A stretch of 64,000 nucleotides of DNA from a virus. Under the pieces are notes generated by a model. That model worked only from the letters and a program-made list of their open reading frames with translations. It did not search any database and was not told where the DNA came from. The translations under genes were made by a program, and so were the position numbers. Positions 9,298 to 30,319 of the stretch are shown in pieces. The stretch covers positions 302,392 through 366,391 of IMG/VR virus record IMGVR_UViG_3300032236_001850; one strand, written 5' to 3'. Positions within the stretch are counted from its first letter, which is position 1, and every line of letters starts with the position of its first letter.

Positions 9298-9874
9298 AGA
9301 AAAAATATTACTTGAAACCCCCAAATTTGATGTTGTAGAAAGAGGTGAAAAACCTGGTGTAGTTTCAAGAGTTGAGACTGTTATGATCCTCCCCTTTATA
9401 AGCGACGATCAGGGGCTACCTTTAATGATTGGTGTTCTTAAAGAACAAAATCTTTTCAGAGATGGCGGAAATGCTCAAAGTCTAATAACAGGAACATGTG
9501 ACGAGGAGGATCCTGATTATTTAGCAACAGCAAAAAGGGAGCTTCTTGAGGAATCAGGCTATGATGTACCTGATAATAATAAGTGGTATTTTTTAGGTAC
9601 AGTTTCCGGAAATAAATTTGTTGACAAAGAATACCCATCCTTTGCAGTTGATGTTACAGGAATAGAAAAGGGTAAAGCAGAGGGTGATGGTTCGGAGCAA
9701 GAAAAAAATGCAGTTTTCCATTTCATTCCTGCAAACGATGTCGTAAAAGCCAAGGATATTTTTATACCTGGTCTTTTTCTAAAGCTTTTTAAATTTGTTG
9801 TTGGAATGGATTTATACAACAGAGAAGATTCAGTTTTCGGTAAGGAGAGTGGATTTAATGATGTTGAAATTTAA
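9290..9874 (+). CDS. Nudix hydrolase
   Basis: A 194-aa Nudix-fold protein. The Nudix box lies at residues 68-91, starting GTCDEED and ending RELLEESGY, which supplies the R-E-U-x-E-E-x-G-U metal-binding helix that hydrolyses nucleoside diphosphates linked to another moiety. Compared with G-x5-E-x7-REUxEExGU, the first Glu is replaced by Asp and one residue is inserted. The surrounding order, with several beta strands before the box and an aromatic C-terminal helix, looks like ADP-sugar/coenzyme pyrophosphatases, but the substrate is unknown. Large phages often carry such enzymes for housekeeping of toxic nucleotides, NAD-type signals or RNA caps. It overlaps the upstream gene by 8 bases. Confidence 0.88.
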   Translation: MSKEKILLETPKFDVVERGEKPGVVSRVETVMILPFISDDQGLPLMIGVLKEQNLFRDGGNAQSLITGTCDEEDPDYLATAKRELLEESGYDVPDNNKWYFLGTVSGNKFVDKEYPSFAVDVTGIEKGKAEGDGSEQEKNAVFHFIPANDVVKAKDIFIPGLFLKLFKFVVGMDLYNREDSVFGKESGFNDVEI

Positions 9875-9884
9875 TATGTAATTT

Positions 9885-10175
9885 ATGAGCAACAGAAGAC
9901 AAAGAAGACAAATTTTAAGATCGATGGGTTTATTAAATATATCTAAGAAAGATCCATTTGATAACAAAGCAAAGATAGAGGAGGGTAAAAATAAACACCG
10001 TCTGCATCTTCAGAATGTTAAAAACAACCAAATACAAAAAGAAAATAAAAATGATTCCGAGGATGATTTCTTCATGTATAGACAACAGGATTCGGAATAT
10101 TCTTCGTTCCAATCCATGCTTATGAAAAGAGATTGGGATAGTCTGGAATCTAATGATGCTAATGCAGGAAATTAA
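9885..10175 (+). CDS. Small basic hypothetical protein
   Basis: A 96-aa protein with a strongly basic N-terminus (MSNRRQRRQILR) and a Lys/Asn-rich, probably disordered remainder. The basic start could bind nucleic acid or be a short assembly peptide. Its 3' end overlaps the next gene by 23 bases. No family recognised. Confidence 0.65.
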   Translation: MSNRRQRRQILRSMGLLNISKKDPFDNKAKIEEGKNKHRLHLQNVKNNQIQKENKNDSEDDFFMYRQQDSEYSSFQSMLMKRDWDSLESNDANAGN

Positions 10176-10488
10176 AGTAAATTTTTATTTATCGAAATAT
10201 TCACCTAAAGAGGCCAAGAAAAGATCAACAATTGGTTCAGATTTCTATGTTGTGGATATATCCAAAATAATAAGAGATCTTGGTTATGAACTAGATAATC
10301 TAACTAGAGAATCGGAGTTTGTAATAAACTACACTATTCGAAAGAAAATACTACAAGGAATATATAGTACAAAGTGTGATGGTATACTTGTGTGCTATAA
10401 GAACATAAATCAAGATTTTATAGAAAATCTTGAAAATCTATTAGACGAACACCCAGAAGAAATACAGTATTCCATTCACAATCTTTAA
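10153..10488 (+). CDS. Small alpha/beta hypothetical protein
   Basis: A 111-aa protein. Three in-frame ATGs lie at 10153, 10156 and 10162; the last gives MQEIKVNFYLSKYS and may be the true start, reducing the overlap with the previous gene. The sequence alternates hydrophobic strands and amphipathic helices (KVNFYLS, GILVCYKNI, ENLENLLDEH), suggesting a small folded domain. Thirteen bases separate it from the first large baseplate gene. Function unknown. Confidence 0.7.
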   Translation: MMLMQEIKVNFYLSKYSPKEAKKRSTIGSDFYVVDISKIIRDLGYELDNLTRESEFVINYTIRKKILQGIYSTKCDGILVCYKNINQDFIENLENLLDEHPEEIQYSIHNL

Positions 10489-10500
10489 AAAAAAGATTAG

Positions 10501-12357
10501 ATGTTTATGGGTCCAACGATAAATACTGGAACTAGTGCTCCTACATTAGAGGAGATTAGAGGCCAAGGTATATTGAACACCTCTGTTCAGAAGTGGAGTA
10601 ATTTAGGTTCTGATAATCCATTCAAAGGTCCAACTGCAAGAACTCTTTTCTATGAGGCTGCAAAAAGAAAACCGGGTAAATATGGGCAATTTTTACTTTA
10701 CTCTTTCGGTAACCATGAAAATAATTTTATAGATGCCTATTACAGATCTGAAAACAGAGAACATAACAGATCGATATCTCCTAGATTGTCTAAAAATCCC
10801 TCGGCTGGTCATCTGGTAAGGGAAACCGGTAATCTGGAATCTGTTATTTATAATTGTAATCATTCGGTTACGGGACTTACTTCAAATCTCGAAAAAAGTA
10901 TAGTTGGAGGATTATCTGCACCTTATTATTGGAAAGATTTTCTTTTCTGTAAATATTACGCAACGATCCCAAATAACTACATGATAACTTTAAGAAGATT
11001 TCCTACCCCAGTTTTGGATAATCTCTCAGTTCCTGCTGCTATAAAAACAAGCGGTGCTTTCAATATTGAGGGTGCTGCAAGACCTGTTGCACAAGCAGTA
11101 ACATGGTTTGGTGGAAATACCGGAAATAAATTGAATGATTTACTGTCATTTAGTGCTGGTATAAAATGGAAAGAAAAGGATCAAAGCTCAATAGCTGAAC
11201 AGCAATCCATGACTCAAGGATTTATAAACGATGGTTCAAAAATTATCGGTGATGTTTTTGGTAGTGGAATAGGTGACAGCGGATTTCTTAAAAATGGTAA
11301 ATCTGTGCTTGAATCGTTAGGTATTGCAGCAGATCCAAGTAATACCAGTATAGAGAATTACAAATTTATGAAATTCAGGGAGTTGATTAAAGATAGTAGA
11401 CAAGGTGCTGGACTTATGGGTGAATATATTTGGACATCTGTCGATGTTGTTAATAAAACACACCTCAGAGATATGGGCTTGCCTTTTACATGGGGTTCTG
11501 GAGCTATATCAGTTAACTTCGAATATGAATTAACATCAGTCGGTGAGGTTAACAGTAAAGCAACAATGTTGGATATTTTGGGTAATCTCCTAAGTATCGG
11601 TACAAATTATGGTTCCTTTTTAACCCCTGATTTTAGATATAATGCAAATTTATCCGCATTTGGATTTCCTGGAGGTAATAAAGGACTTGAAACTTTTTAT
11701 AAAAATCCCTTAAAGTGGTTTGTTGATTTTGGCGATAAACTTACAAATCCATCAAATAAAGATGCATCAGCAGATAGTCTAAACAGAGGTGGTTTTAGTA
11801 GTGATCAACTTGCAGAATTTAAAAATCAAATGCAAACATTAACAAAAAATGCAAATGGTAACTTTTCAGCTGTTGCTGATGCATTGAAAAAAACTTTTGG
11901 TGATGCTGCTGAAAGATTGCTTCAATTAACAGTAACACCAACATTAATTGAGGCTTTCCAATTTCCAGCCAGTATTTTAACAGGTGCACCAATAGGGGAA
12001 TGGCATCTTGTAATAGGTAATCCTTGCAATCCCATAGCTATGATTGGAAATCTTATATGTGAAGGTGTTAAAATATCTTTTGGAGAGGTTTTAGGACCTG
12101 ATGATTTCCCTACCACTTTGAAAGCCACATTCACTTTGAAACATGGTAGAGATAGAGAAAGAGGTGAAATTGAAAGTATCTTCAATAGAGGTGATGGTAG
12201 ACTTTACCAGTCATCAATGCCAACTACAGCAGATTCTCAATCAGTTAATGGAATAGTAAACTCGGAAGGAGCTAATCTTCAATTAGCTGTCAGTGGAGCA
12301 CTTTCTGGAGACTCTTATGGTAGGACAGTAAATAACCAACAATCACCTGGAAAATAA
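10501..12357 (+). CDS. Predicted tail-tube/baseplate completion protein
   Basis: A 618-aa structural protein. The N-terminal part includes IPNNYMITLRRFPTPVLDN and an AVTWFGG-GNKLNDLLSFSAGIKW segment (about residues 160-225), followed by a Gly/Ser-rich linker. The C-terminal 120 residues (GNPCNPIAMIGNL, EVLGPDDFPTTLKATFTLKH, then GRDRERGEIESIFNRG) look like a beta-rich tube-type domain with a basic, charged tail. It begins the run leading to the gp53-, gp27- and gp5-like genes, so a role as a tube initiator or cap, like T4 gp48/gp54, is plausible. That is inference from position and domain feel; no diagnostic motif is present. An alternative ATG lies two codons in. Confidence 0.8.
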   Translation: MFMGPTINTGTSAPTLEEIRGQGILNTSVQKWSNLGSDNPFKGPTARTLFYEAAKRKPGKYGQFLLYSFGNHENNFIDAYYRSENREHNRSISPRLSKNPSAGHLVRETGNLESVIYNCNHSVTGLTSNLEKSIVGGLSAPYYWKDFLFCKYYATIPNNYMITLRRFPTPVLDNLSVPAAIKTSGAFNIEGAARPVAQAVTWFGGNTGNKLNDLLSFSAGIKWKEKDQSSIAEQQSMTQGFINDGSKIIGDVFGSGIGDSGFLKNGKSVLESLGIAADPSNTSIENYKFMKFRELIKDSRQGAGLMGEYIWTSVDVVNKTHLRDMGLPFTWGSGAISVNFEYELTSVGEVNSKATMLDILGNLLSIGTNYGSFLTPDFRYNANLSAFGFPGGNKGLETFYKNPLKWFVDFGDKLTNPSNKDASADSLNRGGFSSDQLAEFKNQMQTLTKNANGNFSAVADALKKTFGDAAERLLQLTVTPTLIEAFQFPASILTGAPIGEWHLVIGNPCNPIAMIGNLICEGVKISFGEVLGPDDFPTTLKATFTLKHGRDRERGEIESIFNRGDGRLYQSSMPTTADSQSVNGIVNSEGANLQLAVSGALSGDSYGRTVNNQQSPGK

Positions 12358-14521: not shown

Positions 14522-16903
14522 ATGTCATTAGGAGCAACGGATAAACAAAGGAGTTTATTTCTCAAAGGATTTAAACTTTCCAAACAGGGTCAATATGAGG
14601 ATCCAACATATCTTGGATTTAAGATTGTTGTTGATTTTGGTACCCTGCCAATAAATTCGGAGGATGGACTACCACCGAGTCCACTTTTTAAGGCTACCAG
14701 TTATCTGTATGGTAATTCCAATGATTTTTGGGCTAGAAATCCTTTCGGACAGGAGCAGTATAATTTCAGAACCCAAACAAATGTGGCATATTATAGTGCC
14801 ACCAGTTATCTGGAGGAGAGGGAAGCAGATTTCCAATATGGTGGTAAAAGATCGGATATGATAAGACAATTCACTAATTCATTTAGTGATCTTTTGAATA
14901 ACACCCCGTGGTTCATTCAATCTATACAGGGTTTGGATGAACTTATGAAGGCTCCGAGGGGTGGATATGCGTCACAGGGTGATGCTGCCAATGTTTTTAA
15001 TCCACAAAGAACAGCTAATAAAACTTTAACTTTCAATACTCTAGAATCCATGAATCTTAGAGTAACAGCTCTAGCTGATTTGTATAATCAAGCAACTTTT
15101 GATTATGATTTTATGAGGGAGGTTGTTCCTAGGAATCTTAGAAAATTTACGATGTACATATTTGTTTCTGAAATAAGAAATTTCTTCAAAACTTCAAGAC
15201 TTATAGGATCATCTGCAGCATTAACAGCAATAGATGATTTATCATCATTACTAGGATCTGGTAATAATCCAGGAAGCAGTGTGGCTGCAGCAACAGATGT
15301 TGCTTCACAACAAAATTCAACATATAGTAATGGTTCACCTGGAGATTTGAATCCTGCAAGTTCATTCAATTCCTTTGTTGGTAATATATTCAACCAAGCT
15401 GGCTTGGATAATGATTTTTCATTATTGAAAAATCAGCAGGATCAGTCAGGTATAAAACCGATGCTTGTTTTTGAATGTAGAAATTGTGAATTTGATTTTA
15501 GTGAGAGCACACCGATACCTACTGAAATACATGCAGGTACAGCACAGGGTAGCGCTACACCAGAATCTCAAAAATTCAAAGTGCATGTTGGAAGAGTAAG
15601 AATGAGAAATCAATATCCTAATATAAGATTAGATGGTAAGCCTTTAGTACTGGGTGATAGCTGGGACGGTGCAAGATCATCAGTTCAGAAATCTCCAAGT
15701 GGAGAAGCATCAGACCTGTTAAGTTTAGGTGGTGAACTGCTAACAAATTTTGTGAGTAATTCATTAAATGATCTTATAAATGAGGGAGTAGCAAATCTTG
15801 CAAAAAATCTGGCCGGTGCGGATAAAGCAGTTCTTGGTAATGCTTATAGTTTTAATCCAAGTGAGCTTTTAACGCATCTATCTTTTAACAGTGCCCAAGA
15901 TTTTCTTTCTCAGCTGGGTGGAGCAAATATAGGTATAACTAAAACCACAATACCTAATCCACAATCTATGGGACTTGGTGGTCCACCAAATAGAATTTAT
16001 AACGCTCCTTCGGGTGATGAATATCCAACTTCACCAGGACAGGATCTAGGTGTTCCTCAAAGAATTTATAACGCTCCTTCTGGAGATGCTTATCCAACTT
16101 CACCTGGACCAGATCTTGGATTACCTCAAAGGGTTTATCCAGCACCGGGTGGTGATGAATATCCAACTTCACCTGGACCAGATCTTGGATTACCTCAAAG
16201 GGTTTATCCAGCACCGGGTGGTGATGAATATCCAACTTCTCCGGGACCAGATCTAGGTGTTCCTAATAGAATATATCCAGCACCTGGAGGTGACGAATAT
16301 CCAACTTCACCAGGACCGGATTTAGGTGTTCCTAATAGAATTTACCCACCAACCACTGGTGACGAATATCCAACTTCGCCTGGACCAGATCTAGGGGTTC
16401 CAAATAGAATTTATCCACCAACTACTGGTGATAAGTATCCAACTTCGCCTGGACCAGATCTCGGAGTACCGAATAGAATATATCCAGCACCAGGTGGTGA
16501 TGCTTATAGTGGAGTTCCTGGGCAGGATCTTGGGGTTCCAAATAGAATTTATCCAAGCCCATCTGGTGACGAATATCCTGGATCACCAGGAGCTGATCTT
16601 GGAGTTCCTGGAAGAGCATACGGAACGGTAAATCAAAACGTTTATCCGAATCAAGGTGTAGTTTCTAATAGTGGACAATTAATAAATGAAAATAATAGTT
16701 TTCAGCAACCACCAGGTACAGTTTATAGTGCACCTCCTACCAACACTAACACAATATCAAGGGGTGACCTCGAAAAGGCATATCCACCAACTAGTGGGGA
16801 TTTCAAGGTGGAAAAACCATTAAATCTTGGAAACCTAAAACCTCCTACTAAATATAATATAAGTACTGATGGATTTAATTCCGATAAAAATGACTTTGTA
16901 TAA
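14522..16903 (+). CDS. Baseplate/tail structural protein with nine-fold 23-aa repeats
   Basis: A 793-aa protein in two parts. Residues 1-490 are folded: an N-terminal beta region, a helical stretch with NLRKFTMYIFVSEIRNFFK near 210, and a beta region around 315-390 (MLVFECRNCEFDFS, then FKVHVGRVRMRNQYP) that resembles tail-tube-type strands. Residues about 492-698 are nine tandem 23-residue repeats of the type IYPAPGGDEYPTSPGPDLGVPNR, Pro/Gly/Tyr/Asp-rich and probably an extended rod. A short Gln/Asn/Pro tail ends the protein. It lies between the hub and spike genes, so it is probably part of the central baseplate; the repeats may be a spacer or length-determining arm. Confidence 0.8.
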   Translation: MSLGATDKQRSLFLKGFKLSKQGQYEDPTYLGFKIVVDFGTLPINSEDGLPPSPLFKATSYLYGNSNDFWARNPFGQEQYNFRTQTNVAYYSATSYLEEREADFQYGGKRSDMIRQFTNSFSDLLNNTPWFIQSIQGLDELMKAPRGGYASQGDAANVFNPQRTANKTLTFNTLESMNLRVTALADLYNQATFDYDFMREVVPRNLRKFTMYIFVSEIRNFFKTSRLIGSSAALTAIDDLSSLLGSGNNPGSSVAAATDVASQQNSTYSNGSPGDLNPASSFNSFVGNIFNQAGLDNDFSLLKNQQDQSGIKPMLVFECRNCEFDFSESTPIPTEIHAGTAQGSATPESQKFKVHVGRVRMRNQYPNIRLDGKPLVLGDSWDGARSSVQKSPSGEASDLLSLGGELLTNFVSNSLNDLINEGVANLAKNLAGADKAVLGNAYSFNPSELLTHLSFNSAQDFLSQLGGANIGITKTTIPNPQSMGLGGPPNRIYNAPSGDEYPTSPGQDLGVPQRIYNAPSGDAYPTSPGPDLGLPQRVYPAPGGDEYPTSPGPDLGLPQRVYPAPGGDEYPTSPGPDLGVPNRIYPAPGGDEYPTSPGPDLGVPNRIYPPTTGDEYPTSPGPDLGVPNRIYPPTTGDKYPTSPGPDLGVPNRIYPAPGGDAYSGVPGQDLGVPNRIYPSPSGDEYPGSPGADLGVPGRAYGTVNQNVYPNQGVVSNSGQLINENNSFQQPPGTVYSAPPTNTNTISRGDLEKAYPPTSGDFKVEKPLNLGNLKPPTKYNISTDGFNSDKNDFV
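15995..16615 (+). repeat. Nine tandem 69-bp coding repeats
   Basis: Nine in-frame units of exactly 69 bp (23 aa) without interruption. Conserved in most units are I/V-Y, G-D, Y-P-T-S-P-G and D-L-G-V/L-P-N/Q-R. Units 3 and 4 are nearly identical at the DNA level while units 1-2 and 8-9 diverge more, the pattern left by recombination or slippage inside an array. A tenth, degenerate copy follows. Confidence 0.95.
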
Positions 16904-16905
16904 TT

Positions 16906-17583
16906 ATGCCTAGTGAAAAAACCTACCTCGGTCAGATTGTAGATATTAGTGATCCACTTAAACAGGGAAGAGCTAAAGTTGCTGTTTTTGGTCTCTTTGA
17001 TAACATACCAATAGAGAATATACCATGGGCTGAACAAAATTCAGGTTTATCTTTTGGTTCCAATTACGGCGGAGGTAATATAACAGTTCCTAGACTTGGT
17101 GCGGTTGTTTCTGTTCACTTCGAAGAGGAAAACTACTATAAGATAACATATGACTATATTAAAGAACAGTCACATGATATTGCAGCTGAATTGCAGGAAG
17201 AAAATTCATACGAAGGAACTCAATCAATTGTATTTGATGGTGAAGCTTTACCAGGAACACTGAAGATAATATACACCAGAAAGAAAGGTCTAGTTATGGC
17301 TTTGGGTGATGCCAAAGTTCAACTTGACACACAGAATGGTGGTGAACTTAGAATAGTTATTAAAATGGGTGATGATGAAATTAGAATGGAACAGAATAAA
17401 GTTATAGTAAAGTCTGAACATATTGAACTTGGTGAGGGTGCTGTTGAAAAACTTGTTAAAGGTAGCACGTTTTTAAATTACTTCAATTCACATACCCATC
17501 AAACCGGTGTGGGACCTTCTGGAGTTCCAATTGTTCTTATGACGGATGCAGAACATCTTAGTCAAGTTTCAAAAACAAAATAA
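16906..17583 (+). CDS. OB-fold baseplate spike protein, gp5/gpV-like, without lysozyme domain
   Basis: A 225-aa protein. Residues 7-110 form the OB-fold found in gp5 and phage gpV spikes: G-x-I-V, DPLKQGRAKVAVFG, then the characteristic IPWAEQ and a VPRLGAVVSVHFEE strand. A beta-strand-rich helix region follows (about 125-180), and the C-terminus has a His-X-His segment (196-198) followed by GVGPSGVP, the usual ending of gpV/VgrG-type spikes that can coordinate a metal at the tip. Unlike T4 gp5 there is no lysozyme domain between these parts, so cell-wall digestion must come from another protein. It directly follows the hub genes. Confidence 0.82.
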   Translation: MPSEKTYLGQIVDISDPLKQGRAKVAVFGLFDNIPIENIPWAEQNSGLSFGSNYGGGNITVPRLGAVVSVHFEEENYYKITYDYIKEQSHDIAAELQEENSYEGTQSIVFDGEALPGTLKIIYTRKKGLVMALGDAKVQLDTQNGGELRIVIKMGDDEIRMEQNKVIVKSEHIELGEGAVEKLVKGSTFLNYFNSHTHQTGVGPSGVPIVLMTDAEHLSQVSKTK

Positions 17584-19443: not shown

Positions 19444-19451
19444 GATATATA
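19444..19451 (+). promoter_or_regulatory. GATATATA late-promoter-like element
   Basis: GATATATA 50 bases before the ATG at 19494, the longest spacing in the set. The intervening leader is AT-rich (ataattaatagtaacg), leaving room for a longer 5' untranslated region on the S1-like mRNA. Confidence 0.5.
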
Positions 19452-19493
19452 GTATAATTAATAGTAACGTATAATCATCTAAAACTAAAAAAA

Positions 19494-20654
19494 ATGAATT
19501 TTGATTCCTTAGAAAATTTTGAATGGGACTTACCTAATGGTTTATCTGTCAATTCTAAAATCAAATCCCCGGCAGGATCTAAAATATATTGCCACGAACC
19601 TTATGCTGACGAACTAGCGAAACTTTATTTTGAAAGCAATGATAAATTCGAAGGAGGATCCAAGGATCTTTTGGACGGTGGAGTTTATCCTTGCACAATT
19701 ATAAGTGTTAAAGCTGATGAGGCTTTAGCGCAAACTAACTCTGGTCAAACAATCTATATTGATTTGAAAAGAGAAAGAAGAGATGCAGAGAAACTTAATA
19801 TTACCGGGATTGGTTTTTATCCTGGTGAGGAGCTTAAAGCAAGAGTTCGAAAAATGAACGGAAGCTATTCCGGTTCTATCATAGAATATTACATACACAG
19901 TCTTAGAGCTGAGTTATTTGAACAAATCAAAAAAGAAAGTAATGCTTACCTTGTTAAGATTGTTAGTATCAACAAGGGTGGATATATTGCTGAATTGTCA
20001 GGTATCAAATGTTTCATGCCTGGTTCATTAGCAGCAGCAAACAAAATAACTGATTTCGAATCGTACATTGGTAAAGAAATGCACGTAATGATTGAAGGTT
20101 ACGTTGAAGCTAAGGATATATTCATAGTTTCTTATAAGAAATATCTTAATAGAATCATGGATTCCAAAATACAGGAACTTGATCTTACTAAGAAATACAA
20201 AGGGTATGTTACAGGAACAAGTGACTTTGGTGTGTTTGTTGAATGGGATGATGTTTATACAGGTCTTATACACAAAACAGAATTTGCTGAAGGAAACAGC
20301 TTAGCTTCACTTTCTCCTGGTATAGAAATTGAATTCTATGTTAAAGAGATAAAAGACAACAACAGACTGACACTTACTCTAGATCAACCACTTGAAAGAA
20401 ACGTAATCATTCAAGATTTGGAATCTCAAGTTAATGATGGAACTGTTGAACCTATGGAAGCAAAGGTTAAACACAAAAGAAAAAATGGAGCTTTGGTAGA
20501 AATACAAGGACTTGGTCTTCTAGCTCTAATACCTCAAGATAAATTGGGTAAGAAAGGAAACAGTATTAAAGTTGGAGACGACGTTACTGTTATTCCTTAC
20601 GAGGTTGAAACGATCTCGGGAAAAATATTCGTTAAAGTAGTAGATGTCGGATAA
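19494..20654 (+). CDS. Ribosomal protein S1-like RNA-binding protein
   Basis: A 386-aa protein with four S1-type OB-fold segments at about residues 62-134, 151-216, 233-298 and 321-385. The third is classical: KYKGYVTGTSDFGVFVEW, then TGLIHKTEF and RLTLTLD; the second has FMPGSL and the fourth ALIPQDKLG. Host S1 binds A/U-rich mRNA leaders and brings them to the 30S subunit. A phage copy could steer translation to phage mRNAs, bind phage RNA, or act as a decoy. It is read from its own late-type promoter and overlaps the next gene by 11 bases. No nuclease or PNPase domain is attached, so an exosome-type role is unlikely. Confidence 0.88.
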   Translation: MNFDSLENFEWDLPNGLSVNSKIKSPAGSKIYCHEPYADELAKLYFESNDKFEGGSKDLLDGGVYPCTIISVKADEALAQTNSGQTIYIDLKRERRDAEKLNITGIGFYPGEELKARVRKMNGSYSGSIIEYYIHSLRAELFEQIKKESNAYLVKIVSINKGGYIAELSGIKCFMPGSLAAANKITDFESYIGKEMHVMIEGYVEAKDIFIVSYKKYLNRIMDSKIQELDLTKKYKGYVTGTSDFGVFVEWDDVYTGLIHKTEFAEGNSLASLSPGIEIEFYVKEIKDNNRLTLTLDQPLERNVIIQDLESQVNDGTVEPMEAKVKHKRKNGALVEIQGLGLLALIPQDKLGKKGNSIKVGDDVTVIPYEVETISGKIFVKVVDVG

Positions 20655-22050
20655 TAGAACACATTTTGATAAGCTCAATGCACTTAGCTCTTCCGTAATT
20701 GGATTTGAATTTGAATTTTTTACTGACCTTTTAAAAGGTAGGGCTGCCGAAGCATTATCCAAACTTATCAAAAAGAAAGTTGTAGTTTCCGAAAAATATC
20801 ACTCAAAAACACCTGTAGATGCCAACAATTTTAAAATTGAACCTGATTATTCTGGTGGTAATAAAATGGTTGAGCTCATCACAGGACCTCTTCCTTACAT
20901 GGAAGCAATTCCAATTTTAATAAAAATATTAAAATGGATAGATGAAAATGGATGGACAAATGATAGATGTGCATTCCAATTTTCTGTAAGCTTCGATAAA
21001 AACAGACCGGAAGTAAAGAACAAAATTGAAACTATCGATAAACTTAAGTTTATATTAGGCCTTGATGAAGGCCTAATATATTCCAAGTTTGGAACTAGAG
21101 AAAAAAATGTTTATGCCAAGTCTGTTAAAAAAGTACTTCCTAGAAATAGATTTTCAATACTTGAAAACATCACCAGCATAGATCCTAAAATGTACCGAGT
21201 ACCAGAGGACAAATATTATGGTGTAAATTTTACAAAGATACCAAAGGGTTACATAGAATTTAGATATCTTGGTAACAGAGATTATCAAAAAAAGATAAAG
21301 GACATAAGGGAAATAATTGATTATATAGTTCTTTACCTTTATGATATTCTAAGCGGAAGAATCAGTGGGTACACTAAACAAGATCTTGCTACTCTCCAGG
21401 GTATGATGAACAAATATGCTAAAGTTGTTAGATCTTTTAGCGATCCTGAAGTTTTCTTTAGAAATTATCCAGATTTTCACATATTCATAGATTTAAAGGG
21501 TTGGGATGAAAATGTTAAGACCTATTTTTTTGCAATAAGGGACAAAATATTTGATCTTATTGTGGATGGTAATATAACATCCTGTTATTTTAACTATGAT
21601 ACAACAACTGGTAGATTCCAAGTTAAGGAAGCTAGAAGTAGAGGTGCATTTGAAATAAGTGGGGTTGATCTTATATTATGTGATATAAAAAATGCAACAG
21701 TTAGAAATTGTAACATTTACAACTGCTCCATAAAAAAATCATGCATCGAGGATTCTTATATTTTTGGTGGAACTAAGGTTATATCATCTAAAATAAAAGC
21801 AACCATAATTGATTTCGGTAACGAGCTCAAGGATTCCTTTGTCGATTGTGAAAATAAGAATATAAATTGTAAGATAATTGGTGGAGTATTTAGAGCGGGG
21901 ATACTTGGTGATAATTCAGAACTAAGTAAAGAAACCATAAAAATTAAAGCTCCGGAGGATATTAGAATGACAAGATTTGTTACTGATAGTAGACTTAAAA
22001 ATCTTAACGACAAATATGGTGGTTCCAAGTTTGGAAACATGAACTACTAA
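20644..22050 (+). CDS. Amidoligase-like enzyme with C-terminal beta-helix
   Basis: A 468-aa two-part protein. Residues 1-320 resemble the putative amidoligase (glutamine-synthetase/gamma-GCS-like) family: GFEFE (20-24) as the first metal-binding acidic motif, KIEPDYS and ELITGPLPY (about 64-85), a QFSVSFD strand (112-117) and IEFRYLGNRDY (204-214), the last typical of this family's C-terminal acidic-arginine motif. These enzymes join an amine to a carboxylate with ATP. Residues about 335-400 have repeating Cys/Ile/Asn-rich rungs (VDLILCDIKNATVRNCNIYNC), like a small right-handed beta-helix. The substrate is unknown; peptide, cell-wall or capsid modification are options. It overlaps the S1-like gene by 11 bases. 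Confidence 0.72.
   Translation: MSDNRTHFDKLNALSSSVIGFEFEFFTDLLKGRAAEALSKLIKKKVVVSEKYHSKTPVDANNFKIEPDYSGGNKMVELITGPLPYMEAIPILIKILKWIDENGWTNDRCAFQFSVSFDKNRPEVKNKIETIDKLKFILGLDEGLIYSKFGTREKNVYAKSVKKVLPRNRFSILENITSIDPKMYRVPEDKYYGVNFTKIPKGYIEFRYLGNRDYQKKIKDIREIIDYIVLYLYDILSGRISGYTKQDLATLQGMMNKYAKVVRSFSDPEVFFRNYPDFHIFIDLKGWDENVKTYFFAIRDKIFDLIVDGNITSCYFNYDTTTGRFQVKEARSRGAFEISGVDLILCDIKNATVRNCNIYNCSIKKSCIEDSYIFGGTKVISSKIKATIIDFGNELKDSFVDCENKNINCKIIGGVFRAGILGDNSELSKETIKIKAPEDIRMTRFVTDSRLKNLNDKYGGSKFGNMNY
21051..21080. other. Perfect 12-bp intragenic inverted repeat
   Basis: TATATTAGGCCT (21051-21062) and its exact reverse complement (21069-21080) with a TGATGA loop, inside the amidoligase-like reading frame. 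No T tract follows, so it is not a standard terminator. Confidence 0.85.
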
Positions 22051-22064
22051 AATAAAAACTTAAC

Positions 22065-22859
22065 ATGACACAGGAAGAATTAGTACAAGAAATCGAGGAT
22101 GCTCTAAATTTTAGCTGCGCATTACCTTATAGCTTAAATGGAACTGAGGTTGAAAGAATCATAAAGAGAGCAAAGGCTTGGTTTTATGACAACTATCAAT
22201 ATGCAGTAGAGGATAGAGTTTTTGTTATAGCAAATAATATTTTCGCACATCCAGAATTCAGAAGAACCAGACAGATAGTACTTCCACCTTCAATAGTTGG
22301 TGTATATGAGGTTAGAGAACTGGGTGGTTATGGTGTATCAGGAACACCGGATAGAGATTTCGGTGATTCAAAATTGCTTGGTTCTGAATTACTTCTTTCT
22401 CCTTTTATGGGTGACAATATGGTTTATAGAACCGTTATGTACTCATATTTTGATTTATCAAAAGCATATCAACTAAACACCTTCGCTTACAAATACAATA
22501 AAAATACGAAAGCTCTAACCATACTTGGTAGAGATCCTAATAGATCTGGTATGGGTGCAAGCCAATCTGCACAATTAGCCCAAGGTTTTAACGGTTCTGG
22601 TGGTATGGACGTTTCTGTTAGATGTCACGTAGCCATTCCTGATGAATACCTGTTTGATGATGAACTTTTTGTTAGATATTGTATAGCTAAATCTAAAATA
22701 GCACTTTCTCAGATGCTTGGTGTATTCACATACAATCTTCCTGGCGGTGTTACAATTAACGCCAGTGAAATAGGAACTCAAGGTACTACTGAACTTCAGG
22801 AGGTCATGGATATGATCACTGGAGAAAATACTCCGTCCTATTTCTTACAATGGAATTAA
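22065..22859 (+). CDS. Putative head-tail connector/neck protein
   Basis: A 264-aa protein: an N-terminal helical half (IIKRAKAWFYDNYQYAVED near 28-46) followed by beta strands (RQIVLPPSIVGVYEV) and a C-terminal helix-loop part (LFVRYCIAKSKIALSQMLG, GGVTINASEIG). The arrangement is like connector or tail-completion proteins found near baseplate wedge genes in large phages, but I see no diagnostic motif. It precedes the gp25-like gene by 29 bases, though a separate promoter-like element lies between. Function is inferred from context and is uncertain. Confidence 0.75.
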   Translation: MTQEELVQEIEDALNFSCALPYSLNGTEVERIIKRAKAWFYDNYQYAVEDRVFVIANNIFAHPEFRRTRQIVLPPSIVGVYEVRELGGYGVSGTPDRDFGDSKLLGSELLLSPFMGDNMVYRTVMYSYFDLSKAYQLNTFAYKYNKNTKALTILGRDPNRSGMGASQSAQLAQGFNGSGGMDVSVRCHVAIPDEYLFDDELFVRYCIAKSKIALSQMLGVFTYNLPGGVTINASEIGTQGTTELQEVMDMITGENTPSYFLQWN

Positions 22860-22863
22860 TCTC

Positions 22864-22871
22864 GATATATA
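22864..22871 (+). promoter_or_regulatory. GATATATA late-promoter-like element
   Basis: GATATATA 25 bases before the ATG at 22889 for the gp25-like gene. A 14-bp palindrome lies between it and the start (22874-22887). Confidence 0.55.
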
Positions 22872-22873
22872 AG

Positions 22874-22887
22874 GGGAATTAATTCCC
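22874..22887. promoter_or_regulatory. 14-bp palindrome between promoter-like box and gp25-like start
   Basis: GGGAATTAATTCCC, a perfect palindrome, starts 3 bases after GATATATA and ends 1 base before the ATG. It would lie at or near the transcription start, suitable for an operator or a 5' hairpin masking the start codon. Function is inference. Confidence 0.35.
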
Positions 22888-22888
22888 T

Positions 22889-23260
22889 ATGAGAGAAATT
22901 TATAATAGAGATCCCGACGATCCAAAGTACAATCCTTACCAATTAGAGGTAACAGATCCAATAGAAATCTGTACTGGTCAACTTAAAATGCTTCTCCTTA
23001 CCAATAAAGGTGAGGTTCTTGGTGATCCTAAATTTGGTTTAAATTTAGAGGATCTTATTTTCAATCTGGAACTTTCTGAATATAGTATAAAAAAGGAACT
23101 TGATCTCAATCTTAAGGTCTACGTTCCTCTTTTTTCTACGCTAGGTGGGACCTATGATTTAAAATTCTATCAGGGAACTCTAAGAGACATTGCAACCCTT
23201 GATTTTTATATACAAGCTGATGGTGGACTAAGTCCATTAGTAACCCTAAAATTAACATAA
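22889..23260 (+). CDS. Baseplate wedge protein, gp25-like
   Basis: A 123-aa protein of the gpW/gp25 family. Diagnostic is the central segment of helix plus TNKGEVLGDPKFGLNLEDLI (about residues 37-56), where gp25 proteins have their Gly-X-X-hydrophobic wedge motif, followed by a C-terminal Y-x-P-hydrophobic strand and beta hairpin. gp25-like proteins form the sheath-initiating wedge of contractile tails and injection systems. It lies immediately before the gp6/baseplate-J-like gene, the conserved order. This gene and the next are the best evidence for a contractile tail. Confidence 0.9.
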   Translation: MREIYNRDPDDPKYNPYQLEVTDPIEICTGQLKMLLLTNKGEVLGDPKFGLNLEDLIFNLELSEYSIKKELDLNLKVYVPLFSTLGGTYDLKFYQGTLRDIATLDFYIQADGGLSPLVTLKLT

Positions 23261-23264
23261 TAAA

Positions 23265-24989
23265 ATGAATATATTTAAGAAGAATAATATACTTATAGAT
23301 GGATTACTTGGTGATACATTTACCTTTCTACAAAGTACATATAATCAAACAGCAAATGTCTTCACCGTTGCTTCCGCTTGGGGACAAATTCTTTTTGTTT
23401 TGCAGAATCTTTCTCAGCTTATACTTTATTTTATTGAGGATTCCATAACAGAGTTAAACATTCAGGAAGCAACGAGGGACTATTCAATAAGAAGCTTAGC
23501 AAGGATTGCAGGTTATGACCCAGGTAGAGCTTCTGCTGCGCAGGGAGAAATTAGTATGGCTTGGAATACCAGGGAAGGTGATGTTTCTGGTGGTGCAGTT
23601 ATTATAAAAAATAATTCTCAAATAAGATGCCTACAAAATGGTAAAATATATTCACTCAGATTTGGAAGTAGTGAGGTTACAATTCCGTTGGTAAGAGGTA
23701 ATAGTATAGCAGCAAAAATAGTTCAGGGTAATTTCGAAACAGCAACACTTACTGGTACTGGAGTAGGTTTACAAAGTTATAATCTTCCATCAGCTTCCGG
23801 AGCTTATATAGATCAATTTTATATAGATGTTTATGTGAATGAGGAGAATTGGAAAAGATATGATTCTTTATATGATATACCGCTTAATGGGAAAGGTTAT
23901 CTTGTTAGAAGTGGAATACAGGAGGGAATAGATCTTTACTTTGGAAATTCTAATTTTGGTATGGTTCCGCCACCTGGTTCAATGATTAGGGTTGAATATT
24001 TACAAACTAGTGGTGTAAGCGGCAATACAAATTCAACAAAAGAATATCCATTGACTTATAAATTCGTAACCAGTGGAACTGATTTGTTTGGTAGTGAGGT
24101 TGATCTCAATCTTTACATAGACATGAAAAATGTTATTGATCCATCTTTTGGAACAAATCCTGAAGCAATCTCTCTAATAAGATTAGTAGCACCAAAAACA
24201 AGTAGATCTTTTGTTTTTGCAAATCCGGAAAATTATGAAATCTTCCTAAGTAAATTTGGTGTTTTTTCACAAATACAAGCATTTTCCACTTTTGATGATG
24301 ATTATCTTGACGACGATAACATAGTTTATCTTTACTTAGTTCCTGATATCACGTTAAATCTTACAACAAATGAGGACTATTTTAGTGTACCAGATGCTGA
24401 CTTTTTACTTACTACCCAACAAAAAACAAAGATTATAAATCTTTTACAGGATTCTGGTTCAATGATAGCTACAACAGTTGTTAAAATCGTTGAACCTGTT
24501 ATAACAAGATATGTTGTTAATGTCGTAATATCCATATTTGAAGGTTATGATCCTGAGACTATAAAACAAACAATAAGAAAAAGATTCTCCGATTATATGC
24601 TAGGTAATAAAAGAAGAGATAAAATACCCAAATCCGATCTTATTGCGATAGTTGAGGGAATACTTGGTGTTGATTCAGTTTCTTTATTTTTCGTTGGTCA
24701 AAAGAATGAGGCTAATCAAATAGCAATTAAGGATCTTACGAATGTTAGTGATGCTCAATATAATGAGGTTATAGGAATGGATAACTTTGGTGACATATTA
24801 ATAGGTAGAAATGAACTAGTAATACTCAGAGGTGGATGGTCAGATAGGAATGGTACATTCTTTACTGATTCAATTGTAGCTGGTAAACCAGGACCTCTTA
24901 ATATAACTATTGCATCAATCGTACCTAAAAATTTAAGAAGCGGTCTAACAGATGATCTAAAAACACAATTAGCAGCACAAAATAAATAA
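23265..24989 (+). CDS. Baseplate wedge protein, gp6/baseplate J-like
   Basis: A 574-aa baseplate-J-type protein. The N-terminal helices (WGQILFVLQNLSQLILYFIED and SIRSLARIAGYDPGRASAAQG, residues about 39-90) are the family start, with the aliphatic N-x-A-x-x-A-G-Y/P-R signature. Beta domains follow (150-270), then the C-terminal helix-beta part with KQTIRKRFSDYMLGN and KSDLIAIVEGILGVDSVSLFF (about 440-475), which contacts neighbouring wedges. In T4 gp6 dimers form the baseplate's inner ring. It begins 4 bases after the gp25-like stop; the two are surely co-expressed. Confidence 0.88.
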   Translation: MNIFKKNNILIDGLLGDTFTFLQSTYNQTANVFTVASAWGQILFVLQNLSQLILYFIEDSITELNIQEATRDYSIRSLARIAGYDPGRASAAQGEISMAWNTREGDVSGGAVIIKNNSQIRCLQNGKIYSLRFGSSEVTIPLVRGNSIAAKIVQGNFETATLTGTGVGLQSYNLPSASGAYIDQFYIDVYVNEENWKRYDSLYDIPLNGKGYLVRSGIQEGIDLYFGNSNFGMVPPPGSMIRVEYLQTSGVSGNTNSTKEYPLTYKFVTSGTDLFGSEVDLNLYIDMKNVIDPSFGTNPEAISLIRLVAPKTSRSFVFANPENYEIFLSKFGVFSQIQAFSTFDDDYLDDDNIVYLYLVPDITLNLTTNEDYFSVPDADFLLTTQQKTKIINLLQDSGSMIATTVVKIVEPVITRYVVNVVISIFEGYDPETIKQTIRKRFSDYMLGNKRRDKIPKSDLIAIVEGILGVDSVSLFFVGQKNEANQIAIKDLTNVSDAQYNEVIGMDNFGDILIGRNELVILRGGWSDRNGTFFTDSIVAGKPGPLNITIASIVPKNLRSGLTDDLKTQLAAQNK

Positions 24990-25531: not shown

Positions 25532-28500
25532 ATGGCAAATCTAAATCTTAATTTTTATAATAAAAACGGGAATCCATTAAATTTCGATTATATAGGACCA
25601 ACCGGACCGACTCCTCTTGATACTAAATTCTCCCACATATTAAGTGATTCTCCATTAGTTGCTGGTTATTTTGAATGGACCGACAATCCGGATGACTATA
25701 CATTAACACTAAATATAAATGATGTAAACAATACGAATTTATATAAGTGGTGTATCGAGGCTGAGGATTTTATTGCTAAAGGTGCAACTCTATACCTTAA
25801 TGGATTAATTCCTGTTGCAAATACAAATTTTAAGGGAAAGGTATCCTCAGTTACGATAAATTCTAATCAAACGTTTGACGTTGTTTTACCAAAGAGCCAT
25901 TTCCTTGGACAAAGTATATTAAGCTATGATACCCAAGTTTATTTTGAGGGAACTTATGAGAACAGACCTGGTGGATATTTCAAAGGTAACATTTATTTTG
26001 ATCCCATTTCAACTAGTCTTTATGAGAATCAGCAAATATTCGTTGTTCAGGAATTTTTAAATCATTCCGGAGATTTAGTGTATGGATTACCTCACACATC
26101 CAATCTTGGTTTAACCGGAGGTAAATGGAGAACAAGATGGTATAATGATAATTATGGGGATATTGACGTTTCCGAGATTATATTTACCTATGCCATAGAG
26201 GACCAGCTGGAAGGTGGTGACGGACAACCTCTTATTGTTAGTTATCCAAATATGGTTATGCCAGTTGGCTCAAGTCTTAGTGATTCGTATTCAAATGGGT
26301 TTATAATTAGTAATAATATAGTTTCTGATGCTATAGGAATAAATGTTGCACTTAATTCCCCGGATGATCTGGAAAATGTTTATGAAAGGAAACTTATTGT
26401 TGAGGACATATCAATCGGAACCCCACAAAAAGTTATAGAAATTGACTTTTATGGACAGACAGTTGGTGAGGATGAGAGGTTTAAGGTGCTTCTTGAAAAT
26501 ATTGGAAGATCGTTTTACAATAGTGATTCCATAATACTTAGAGATCACGATCCTGCTGAACCAGTTCCAAACTTTTTGGAAATCAACGAAAAAAGAAAGG
26601 AGTTACTTATAGCTGGTGAGGATATATTCCCATATATAGGTAGTTATAAAGGCCTTATTAATGCCCTTAAATTCTTCGGTTATCAGGACATGAGAATTAA
26701 GGAGTATTGGTTGAATCTAAATTATAAGAACCTAAAACTTGAATCACCATTACAACAAAACCAATCTTTCCTTAATAAAATAAAAAATGAACAAGCAAAG
26801 AATGGTTATTCACAATCATACACGATAGGGGATGTTCTTGATAATGAAAATTCAGGTAAATATAAATTAACACAGACATATGGACCTGACAATAAAGGAA
26901 ATTATGTTCTTAATGTTACGTCCGAGAATTCTCAACTCCCTAGTAAATCACTAAAGAAAACTTCACTGTTTGGTCTTTATTATGATCTAAATAAGGTTAC
27001 TGATGATGTTGACGAGTATGGATACCCTGTGGTTGTTGATGCTTTTAAATTCACTCAAGAGGAAGTTCTTATAAAAATCTTTGCTCTAAAGCAAAGATTG
27101 AAAAGAGATTATCTTCCATTAAATGCCAGAATAATAGATATCACTGGGGAAGGTGTTTATTTCATGATACAAAACACAAGATCCTGGACTGATCAGATGT
27201 TAAGATCTGATATAAACATAGGTTATGACTTTGATTTTTTTCCAAACCCAGATTTTGGCTTTATTGAGGATCTTAGAAATTTCACGGTAAGACCAAATCC
27301 AAACTATATTCAGATCCCAAGCTCCTATGATAATTCATACAGTATTGATGTTTCCTTTCCTGGTGGAACCGGTAGTGCAATAAGATTTACCGGTGATATT
27401 CCTAATGGTATAACTGGTGATAATCCAATATTAAAATTACAAGCAGGTAAGTCATACACTTTTAATGTTACTGATACTAATTCAACGGGATCGAATCTTA
27501 ACATTACTTCCTTTGCTGGGTTTCCAAATTATCCTTACCAGTGGTCAACAAATACACCAACAGGTATTGTTAATAACGGAGCAACCGGTGGGTATTCCTT
27601 GCAATGGTATATAGCACCTGATGCTTCGGGAACTATACATTATTATTCCACAACAAATCCAAGTCTTATGTCAGGAGTTATACAGATAGTACCTGCAACA
27701 GTATCGGATCTTGGTAACATTATAAATCCTCTGGATGTCCAACAAAATTATACAGCAGCACAAAACGAATCACTTCTATCAGCAATAGCCAAATTTTATG
27801 ATTTAAAACAGAATGGTGAAATATTGGAACTTGGCGATGGTAGATTTGATCCTCCTGCTTATATAGATCCAGTAACGGGTAAGATGTACGAAACACCTGT
27901 GGGAATGCCGGTAATTCTGGAACTCTCTGCAAATAAGTGGATATGGAATGAATTAAATATAGATTGGGACGCATTACTTGTGCCAACTTATAGACCTGGT
28001 GATAGGGTTAAAGTTAAAGCTACAGGAATATTTGGATCAGTTATTACCGTTTATTATAGTAACGGCGAATATGAAATAGCTCTTGACAATTCAACTACTG
28101 GAATATTTGGTGAGGCTGAATTATACTCTGGTGTACAGAATTACAGCATGCTCAATTGGAAGAATATAGATTTTTCCAATATGATGGAAATTGAGTGGAT
28201 ATTAAATAAATCCGCAACACAGACCGGTACACCTTACCATTTCGAATTTAGAGGATCCATAGTTGATTATTATAAACTTGCCCACTTCTTACCTTACACC
28301 GGAGAATATCAAGTCATATGTAACACGTATGACGCTTTTAACGCAAAGACAACCGTTATTAAAAATGCATCAATCTACGTTGATCCGAAAACTGTCGATA
28401 TAGATTCTTGGACTAGATATAGAGAGGTTGAAAATTATCTATGGGATAATGTTGATAGAGAATGGAGAGAATATGAATCCATATGGGAATATCCAGCCGA

Positions 28501-30319
28501 AGGATCAACCATAGACGAACTTAGAAAAAAAATACCTTCGGAGATTCTTGATTTTGCAACATACGGAAATAAATCAAGAGATGGACAGGATGTTTATGTG
28601 AGAACAACTGAACCACCAACCGGAGCTTATGGTACAATAAAACTAAACCAAACAATTCTAAGTATTTCTTCCGTTGAATCCTTACAGATCTCGACCGGAC
28701 AATATGGTTATGCAAACATTATAACTCCTGTTGTACATGATCTTATGAGTGGTGACGAAGTAACTATAACCGGTAGTATTCCACAAATTAATGGTAGATG
28801 GTATGCTACTGTTGTAGATCCGTATACGTTTTATATTCCAGTAACTCTTGATTATTCATGGAGCGGTGTTTTGAATCAAAGTACACCACCACAAAAGCTT
28901 TATGTTGATACTTCCATATACAATTCTCAAAAAATACTTGGTAGTGGAAGTTTATCTGTGTATGTTAATGATAGACTTATTGGATATAGTGAAACAGGTG
29001 ACAGTTTATATAACACTGCAAATGAGATAACTTCAGCAATAAATTCATTAAGAACCTATCCTGATTATTTCGCTTCTTGTGAAAATCCACAGGAAGATCC
29101 AGTAACAATCACAATTTATGCTCCTAGTGAACTTGGAGCAAATCAGAACGGGGTTTCTTTGAGAGTTCAAGAGAGTGGTTCAATTAATATATTTTCATTT
29201 ACCCCTTCTCTAACCGGTGGTATTAATCCTAATGATTATTATGTTTATTGGGATGAAAATATGACAGAATATCCCAATCCAAATCTTAAATATTGGGGAA
29301 CTAAAAGATTGAATTGGGAGATATTCAACGAAAGTACCTGGGAGGATGGTTATGCTCATTCTTGGTATGATTATGAATTTAATAATGATTGGCTTGGTGG
29401 ATATGAGTTACATAGTTTAAGACACCTTGACACATTAAAGATATCGACCGCTAATGAAACTTATCCGTTTCCAGAAACTATGGTTTTCAGCGGGAGTGGT
29501 AAATTCAAAACGTTAACACTTTCTAGTGCAGCAGCACAACTTAATTCTGCTGGACCTAATATAGAAAATTTTTATTATAGAGTTATACCAGACGACACTG
29601 GATCCATGCTAGCTACGGTTGGGCCAATAAATGTTGTTGTTGGTAATAGTGGATTGGTTAATGGACCGTATTATCCGCCACCGTCATTAGTTGGCGGTAG
29701 TCCATTGCTTATCGCTAATTTTGGTTATACTGGAGGTTCTCCTGTTACAACAACTACAACAACCACGACGACTAGTACAACCACAACAACAACGACAACC
29801 ACAACAACAACTAGTACAACCACAACAACAACGTTGCCTCCAACGACAACGACAACCACAACTGCTCCTCTTTATGATTGTAGTTTGTCTGGAACCGCTG
29901 TGGTTAATTATCCAACTACAACCACAACAACCAGTACAACAAGTACTACTACAACCACAACTGCTCCACCATATGGAACATTTAGGGTTAGAAATAGTAC
30001 AGGACATACAGTAACAGGTAATTTTCAAATTACCTTGAATTCTGTTCCACAAAATGCTTACAGCGCTGGTTATGCCTCAATACCTCATACTGGATATGTT
30101 GATTTACCTTTAAATGTTTCATATACTACACCAATAACTGGATCATACGTGGTAACATTCTCAGGAACTGGTATAGGTACATCTAATTTATGTCAGTTAC
30201 TTAATGCACATGTTGTTGGACCTGTTAATTTCACTTATATTGGCGGTAGTCAATATTACGCAGGATTCACTCTAAATAGTGGAAATTCTCAAAATGGATT
30301 TGAATTTGGTGTATATTAA
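25532..30319 (+). CDS. Giant tail adhesin with Thr-rich linkers
   Basis: A 1595-aa virion protein. The N-terminal half is beta-rich with repeated domains and likely anchors to the baseplate. Residues about 604-720 look like a cupredoxin-like sandwich found in other phage fibres (SYTFNVTDT, then SGTIHYYSTTNPSLMSG), but the Cys/His copper ligands are replaced, so it is probably structural or a lectin. Ig-like strands follow to about 1400. Near the C-terminus two threonine-rich tracts (residues 1406-1444 and 1462-1477, with Ser, Pro and Ala) separate small Cys-containing domains. Such tracts are extended, protease-resistant and glycosylatable. It is the first of a series of long adhesins. Confidence 0.85.
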   Translation: MANLNLNFYNKNGNPLNFDYIGPTGPTPLDTKFSHILSDSPLVAGYFEWTDNPDDYTLTLNINDVNNTNLYKWCIEAEDFIAKGATLYLNGLIPVANTNFKGKVSSVTINSNQTFDVVLPKSHFLGQSILSYDTQVYFEGTYENRPGGYFKGNIYFDPISTSLYENQQIFVVQEFLNHSGDLVYGLPHTSNLGLTGGKWRTRWYNDNYGDIDVSEIIFTYAIEDQLEGGDGQPLIVSYPNMVMPVGSSLSDSYSNGFIISNNIVSDAIGINVALNSPDDLENVYERKLIVEDISIGTPQKVIEIDFYGQTVGEDERFKVLLENIGRSFYNSDSIILRDHDPAEPVPNFLEINEKRKELLIAGEDIFPYIGSYKGLINALKFFGYQDMRIKEYWLNLNYKNLKLESPLQQNQSFLNKIKNEQAKNGYSQSYTIGDVLDNENSGKYKLTQTYGPDNKGNYVLNVTSENSQLPSKSLKKTSLFGLYYDLNKVTDDVDEYGYPVVVDAFKFTQEEVLIKIFALKQRLKRDYLPLNARIIDITGEGVYFMIQNTRSWTDQMLRSDINIGYDFDFFPNPDFGFIEDLRNFTVRPNPNYIQIPSSYDNSYSIDVSFPGGTGSAIRFTGDIPNGITGDNPILKLQAGKSYTFNVTDTNSTGSNLNITSFAGFPNYPYQWSTNTPTGIVNNGATGGYSLQWYIAPDASGTIHYYSTTNPSLMSGVIQIVPATVSDLGNIINPLDVQQNYTAAQNESLLSAIAKFYDLKQNGEILELGDGRFDPPAYIDPVTGKMYETPVGMPVILELSANKWIWNELNIDWDALLVPTYRPGDRVKVKATGIFGSVITVYYSNGEYEIALDNSTTGIFGEAELYSGVQNYSMLNWKNIDFSNMMEIEWILNKSATQTGTPYHFEFRGSIVDYYKLAHFLPYTGEYQVICNTYDAFNAKTTVIKNASIYVDPKTVDIDSWTRYREVENYLWDNVDREWREYESIWEYPAEGSTIDELRKKIPSEILDFATYGNKSRDGQDVYVRTTEPPTGAYGTIKLNQTILSISSVESLQISTGQYGYANIITPVVHDLMSGDEVTITGSIPQINGRWYATVVDPYTFYIPVTLDYSWSGVLNQSTPPQKLYVDTSIYNSQKILGSGSLSVYVNDRLIGYSETGDSLYNTANEITSAINSLRTYPDYFASCENPQEDPVTITIYAPSELGANQNGVSLRVQESGSINIFSFTPSLTGGINPNDYYVYWDENMTEYPNPNLKYWGTKRLNWEIFNESTWEDGYAHSWYDYEFNNDWLGGYELHSLRHLDTLKISTANETYPFPETMVFSGSGKFKTLTLSSAAAQLNSAGPNIENFYYRVIPDDTGSMLATVGPINVVVGNSGLVNGPYYPPPSLVGGSPLLIANFGYTGGSPVTTTTTTTTTSTTTTTTTTTTTTSTTTTTTLPPTTTTTTTAPLYDCSLSGTAVVNYPTTTTTTSTTSTTTTTTAPPYGTFRVRNSTGHTVTGNFQITLNSVPQNAYSAGYASIPHTGYVDLPLNVSYTTPITGSYVVTFSGTGIGTSNLCQLLNAHVVGPVNFTYIGGSQYYAGFTLNSGNSQNGFEFGVY
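29747..29863 (+). repeat. Threonine-coding ACN microsatellite, tract 1
   Basis: A run of ACA/ACC/ACG/ACT codons interrupted by AGT and a TTG-CCT-CCA break. Codon shuffling (mixed third bases) shows selection at the protein level rather than a simple repeat. It encodes the first Thr linker of the 1595-aa adhesin. Confidence 0.9.
29915..29962 (+). repeat. Threonine-coding ACN microsatellite, tract 2
   Basis: A second run of Thr codons with Ser interruptions, 51 bases after the first and separated from it by a short Cys-containing segment. It ends in TAPP, the same proline stop as tract 1. Confidence 0.9.

Follow-up and report, generated by a model that had tools for sequence, protein, structure and literature searches.

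Possible ribosomal protein S1 (rpS1) genes were reported in huge phages, including Lak and the 634-735 kb Mahaphage, by Al-Shayeb et al. in 2020, together with the proposal that they act in translation initiation; a 'true' rpS1 could not be confirmed in that work because S1 domains are ubiquitous (PMC7162821). The support then available for a hijacking role of huge-phage S1 was the lack of Shine-Dalgarno (SD) sites, an argument that is shown here to be confounded by host phylum: SD-less, A-rich leaders are typical of Bacteroidota (PMC6847099), in whose ribosomes the anti-SD is concealed (PMC9976891). In this phylum, bS1 is suspected of binding an A-rich element (PMC6847099), and added F. johnsoniae bS1 gave an increase of about two-fold in initiation on one SD-less mRNA (PMC9976891). 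Phage-encoded bS21 and bL12 enter ribosomes (PMC6375957), and the nearest precedent for a late phage bS1 is the bS21 of Bacteroidetes phages, whose gene lies among structural genes and is expressed late (PMC9723584). Like it, the protein described here is encoded in a block of structural genes, would act in initiation on the 30S subunit, and is proposed to steer late translation to phage mRNA, as bS21 has been (PMC9723584); it differs in being a different ribosomal protein. Additionally, four-domain viral S1 proteins are present in BFVD (A0A7S9STL2 of Virus NIOZ-UU157, A0A6J5NIG6, and A0A8D9CG03; 373-385 aa), two of which already carry the annotation 30S ribosomal protein S1. These match our protein across almost the entire length (E 3.6e-30 to 5.4e-27), although identity is limited to 26-28%.

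The window analyzed here, a stretch of 64,000 bases, corresponds to bases 302392-366391 of a virus record 434,509 bases long and carries an S1-like gene within a block of baseplate and neck genes. The locus comprises the following features:

16906-17583, plus strand: baseplate hub (gp5-like), upstream neighbor (PHROG 430, E 1.7e-11; synteny)
19444-19451, plus strand: GATATATA, promoter-like element (also precedes the S1 start in every syntenic relative printed)
19476-19493, plus strand: A-rich leader without a Shine-Dalgarno site, abutting the start codon (sequence)
19494-20654, plus strand: gene of the phage bS1-like protein, with ATG at 19494, a stop codon ending at 20654, and a product of 386 aa (open reading frame, Pfam, phmmer against PDB, profile against PDB, AlphaFold2, Foldseek, dN/dS)
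20644-22050, plus strand: amidoligase-like protein, downstream neighbor (PF12224, Amidoligase_2, E 8.3e-5; synteny)
22065-24989, plus strand: neck-like (22065), gp25-like (22889), and gp6-like baseplate wedge (23265) neighbors (PHROGs; synteny)

A 621-aa protein lies, with the baseplate hub, on the upstream side of the S1 gene, and the start of the amidoligase-like gene (20644) overlaps the S1 stop, so that the adjacency to an amidoligase gene proposed in an earlier note on this DNA holds. The GATATATA element was found approximately 30-60 bases before the S1 start in all syntenic relatives printed, including L064 and L065, whose S1 identity is about 32%, and a comparable A-rich block precedes the start codons of most relatives. 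Within the window, the element occurs in 11 copies, all on the plus strand, against 6.7 expected on both strands, which is a moderate excess; six other copies are situated just upstream of open reading frames (22864, 32299, 39170, 53156, 58771, and 62954). Since this count is only moderately above chance, a promoter role rests on conservation and position, and on these grounds GATATATA is a likely late promoter of this phage group. The late-type promoter of the earlier note is therefore retained as a conserved element in front of the gene in the window and its syntenic relatives, with a predicted function. The window gave no matches to Rfam, and neither bS21 nor IF3_C was found when they were looked for in the record as companion translation genes. 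tRNA genes were absent from the 164 kb of the record read, which beyond the window was sampled as five 20-kb stretches.

According to Pfam, PF00575 matches the protein only once (aa 234-292, E 2.8e-12), a weak S1_2 match covers aa 322-369, and no non-S1 or enzymatic domain was detected in the 386 residues. The AlphaFold2 (AF2) model consists of four OB folds linked by helices (mean pLDDT 80.9, pTM 0.54). The description of the protein as one classical and three diverged S1 folds without an enzymatic domain was accordingly correct. In a single-sequence search of the PDB (phmmer), bacterial bS1 proteins, including that of E. coli, matched best (about 1e-12), spanning OB2-OB3, and a family profile built from ten divergent phage members aligned along its whole length with E. 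coli bS1 residues 13-345, covering OB1-OB4 in order (E 2.6e-63) and scoring bS1 far above PNPase, RNase R, and Rrp5. The top Foldseek matches in the PDB were ribosome-bound bS1 (9gut, E 3.7e-22; 9guv, 9gux, and 6h4n), with low whole-chain TM-scores (0.3-0.4), as the flexibility of a beads-on-a-string protein would predict. Among the NCBIfam models, those of bS1 were best, yet the score was far under the cut-off (83.1 vs. 524 bits), indicating a diverged bS1 homologue rather than an equivalog. The protein could not be assigned to other S1-repeat classes (PNPase, RNase R, CvfD/GSP13, NusA, Rrp5), as it has no catalytic or partner domain, is not a single-domain protein, and the bS1 models outscore theirs. 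The collinearity with OB1-OB4 and the ribosome-bound bS1 structures as best PDB matches therefore identify it as a bS1 homologue and not a random S1-repeat protein; a chance or non-S1 OB protein was ruled out by the profile alignment and the Foldseek matches.

The organization of the protein along the gene is as follows:

19518-19526, plus strand: F9-x-W11, a motif of the N-terminal tail (unchanged in all 34 syntenic relatives)
19605-19640, plus strand: N-terminal helix, aa 38-49, before OB1 (AF2 secondary structure; bS1 alignment)
19677-19877, plus strand: OB1 (about aa 62-128), matching bS1 OB1 (profile alignment, AF2, alignment)
19941-20132, plus strand: OB2 (about aa 150-213), matching bS1 OB2 (profile, AF2, alignment, conservation)
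20184-20381, plus strand: OB3 (about aa 231-296), classical S1 domain (PF00575; conservation)
20451-20648, plus strand: OB4 (about aa 320-385), diverged (AF2; K326/K330 conservation)

Residue conservation was counted over the 34 syntenic relatives. In E. coli bS1, Lys43 of OB1 inserts into the zinc pocket of uS2; in contrast, the alignment to bS1 shows no Lys at this position in the clade of the window or in Lak phages, and Lys is found there in several distant members, e.g., L065, L066, L068, L069, and L071. OB2 of E. coli bS1 touches the SD segment of the mRNA via K117, F120, and F130 (PMC10123108), and the equivalents in the phage protein are K161 (K in 30/34), Y164 (31 Y and 3 F), and F174 (34/34). 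Likewise, the RNA-binding residues F245, F248, and H260 of OB3 are each present in all 34 relatives, and R291 in 30 of them. OB4 has lost the classical aromatic and His positions and instead carries a basic K-x-[KR]-R-K-N hairpin; it is canonical in distant relatives, with C-terminal S1 matches in L066, L068, L069, and L071. In the stop-recoded S1 of a Lak phage (L067:7977-9083), OB4 is absent and the protein ends in an acidic, alanine-rich tail. When compared to bacterial bS1 (rpsA), the phage protein shares the order of OB1-OB4, the linking helices, the OB2 pocket residues, and the classical OB3, and differs in its identity of only about 20%, the absence of OB5-OB6 and of a Lys43 equivalent, the diverged OB4, and scores under the NCBIfam cut-offs.

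One further likeness is confined to the bS1 of Bacteroidota, namely the F-x-W motif followed by a helix before OB1. Residues 1-36 of the phage protein are variable and AF2 confidence is low at the extreme end; nonetheless, F9 and W11 are invariant, and F-x-W is also found in Lak phages and in the distant members L064 and L065. The helix bears ELAKLY, comparable to ELEKAY in Bacteroides bS1. FNW followed by an ELEKAY-type helix was present in all six Bacteroidota bS1 examined (Bacteroides, Phocaeicola, Parabacteroides, two Prevotella, and PDB chain 9zcd_A, which was counted here because its sequence is closest to the five Bacteroidota records), a small sample whose records, taken from a plasmid collection, are all Bacteroidales. 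Nine bS1 N termini of other phyla all lacked F-x-W (three Alphaproteobacteria, Pseudomonas, E. coli, Neochlamydia, Enterococcus, Limosilactobacillus, and Microbacterium); a tenth record, a bifunctional Pusillibacter protein with another enzyme at its start, was not comparable and was excluded. This distribution suggests that the phage protein docks where host bS1 does, and the position of the segment, equal to that of the uS2-binding helix in E. coli, leads us to infer that it anchors bS1 on the ribosome. In two of the relatives with the longest genomes (L066:5722-6807 and L069:7677-8765), F-x-W is replaced by DF[ED]LLFE[ED], which resembles the uS2-binding helix F5-x-x-x-F9-E10 of E. coli bS1.

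A first scan of viral sequences confirmed 65 contigs or loci with a homologue, and the profile scan returned 451 coding stretches. The S1 gene is under strong purifying selection, with dN/dS values of 0.023-0.032 against the three closest relatives (L002-L004), the lowest of six genes compared (jointly lowest for L004), and 0.064 against the more distant L006, where dS is saturated. In the relatives examined, the order hub, S1, amidoligase, neck, gp25, and gp6 persists to identities as low as about 32% (L054, L061, L064, and L065) and is largely kept in the 462-kb LR756500; S1 homologues of Lak and of the 635-735 kb phages sit among other genes. In L061, a 427-aa open reading frame on the opposite strand (9240-10523) lies between the neck and gp25 genes. 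Homology to the huge-phage rpS1 was evident from tblastn matches in 15 of 15 Lak records and in six huge-phage LR records (E to about 1e-36). In a tree that included only seven bacterial sequences, the phage S1 proteins formed one clade (support 100/100) on a long branch to bacterial S1 (2.94). A recent capture from the host was not supported, since this single long-branch clade was not nested in Bacteroidota bS1 among those seven sequences.

The leaders of the phage genes follow the pattern expected of the presumed host. SD-like 4-mers were found in 7 of 143 leaders, against 4.3-4.5 from shuffles (4.5 +/- 1.9), with no clear excess, and the frequency of A was 0.64 at -3 and 0.60 at -10 to -14, over a background of 0.35. 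The statement that these genes lack SD sites and follow A-rich leaders was therefore accurate, but its use as evidence for S1-based selection was not upheld. PTm1 and MaF61, baseplate-homologous phages on Tenacibaculum and Flavobacterium in whose whole records the profile search found no S1, are equally SD-less (1/37 and 1/32; T4 control 21/34) and also A-rich. The absence of SD sites is thus a host trait here and no argument for phage S1; the rarity of SD sites seen in S1 carriers, as in the huge-phage rpS1 family, is a non-discriminating feature. Phages with homologous baseplate wedges have hosts almost entirely in Bacteroidota (Prevotella, Tenacibaculum, Chryseobacterium, and Flavobacterium). 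One scan of a genome collection returned Candidatus Stammera bS1 alone, so that the assignment of the host to Bacteroidota is based on these relatives. Among 31 baseplate-homologous records, S1 was present in all 21 of at least 462 kb, and the 10 of 168-235 kb all lacked it; across these few related records, its presence is associated with very large genome size. The smaller phages do without it, so SD-less translation in itself does not require S1.

An S1-like translation protein, as originally proposed, agrees with the collinearity with bS1 OB1-OB4, the retained OB2 and OB3 residues, and the Bacteroidota-type N-terminal segment, and we lean slightly towards reading it as a bS1 paralogue reduced to OB1-OB4 that acts late, docks on the 30S subunit, replaces or competes with host bS1, and favors late phage mRNA. 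According to this proposal, the protein would be made late from its own promoter within the baseplate and neck gene block of a giant Bacteroidota phage, and its N-terminal segment (F-x-W, helix, and OB1), resembling that of host bS1, would dock it at the place on the 30S subunit that host bS1 occupies. OB2, OB3, and the basic OB4 could then keep SD-less, A-rich mRNA close to the exit channel, and replacement of or competition with host bS1 would result in efficient initiation of late phage messages. The unconserved Lys43 in the clade of the window, the missing OB5-OB6, the NCBIfam scores under cut-off, the long phage-bacterial branch, and the smaller phages that lack the gene count against this reading. 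Its weakest step is a preference for phage over host mRNA, since the leaders of the two are similar.

The loss of the Lys43 contact and the basic patch of OB4 would also fit a protein whose main work is done away from the ribosome: in free form, it could bind long late phage mRNAs to unfold, protect, or anneal them, or it could assist phage transcription or replication. S1 repeats are present in many RNA proteins, host S1 serves in Qbeta replicase, and Foldseek also matches the S1 of the Qbeta holoenzyme, though that chain is bS1 itself. We consider such a role unlikely, as a free RNA chaperone would have no need of the complete OB1-OB2 ribosome-anchoring module and the Bacteroidota-type N-terminal segment that are kept here. 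The same anchoring domains, combined with the missing OB5-OB6, would suit a dominant-negative decoy, a short bS1 that takes the place of host bS1 and blocks host initiation without recruiting phage mRNA; E. coli ribosomes with phage bS21 gave about 5% of the normal product in vitro (PMC6375957). However, the RNA-contacting residues of OB2 and OB3 are kept under strong selection, four-domain bS1 is normal in many Bacillota and Actinobacteria (PMC6705787), and a late gene block would be late timing for a shut-off, which makes the decoy distinctly improbable. We give even less credence to a structural role, in which the protein would be produced alongside the baseplate and neck as part of the virion or for its assembly and would use its OB folds as protein-protein modules. 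Its fixed place between the baseplate hub and neck genes over wide divergence and the start overlap with the amidoligase-like gene speak for it, but the homologues of Lak and the 635-735 kb phages lie elsewhere, the bS1-specific mRNA-pocket residues are conserved, and tail-protein families gave zero matches (PHROGs).

Beyond the bS1 paralogue competing for late initiation, we tentatively put forward a more far-reaching possibility, which we hold to be rather doubtful: an ancient, strongly constrained bS1 paralogue of giant Bacteroidota phages, with the N-terminal motif of the host phylum, might displace host bS1 late in infection and produce phage-specialized ribosomes favoring late phage mRNA. 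The setting may be hosts in which SD pairing is blocked and bS1 is the main route of mRNA recruitment. If F-x-W anchors bS1 to Bacteroidota ribosomes, it would permit a direct test of a virus swapping a ribosomal protein to change the mRNAs that are read, and the same handle might also teach how SD-less bacteria recruit mRNA.

Phage S1 and its proposed role were already known from 2020 (PMC7162821), four-domain viral S1 proteins were present in databases, and the earlier note had called the family not new. The four-domain form, which had been thought unusual, was dropped as a distinguishing feature because Bacillota bS1 (402 and 410 aa; PMC6705787) and other phage S1 proteins (373-385 aa) share it. 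In the literature searched, what is new comprises the OB1-OB4 collinearity, the N-terminal motif shared with Bacteroidota, the evidence on synteny and selection, and the SD control. Compared with the huge-phage rpS1, with which it forms the single phage clade and shares the translation-initiation proposal, the S1 of the window clade is set apart by its place in the baseplate and neck block; collinearity and the N-terminal motif now support a true bS1 relationship, and collinearity and the key residues largely settle the question of bS1 homology for the huge-phage proteins.

Some minor observations concern the surrounding genes. Each of the six huge-phage LR records that carry S1 also has a homologue of the amidoligase-like protein, which in those of 635-735 kb is not linked to S1; no such homologue was found in Lak phages. 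In the window protein (20644-22050), the weak Amidoligase_2 match is confined to the first 170 aa, and the C-terminal part appears by eye repeat-like and possibly beta-helical. A 793-aa open reading frame (14522-16903) consists of tandem repeats of about 20 aa of the YPTSPGPDLGVPNRIYPAPGGDE type, and homologues of variable length lie upstream of the baseplate hub in relatives. Finally, a 1595-aa open reading frame (25532-30319) carries long poly-threonine tracts near its C-terminus.
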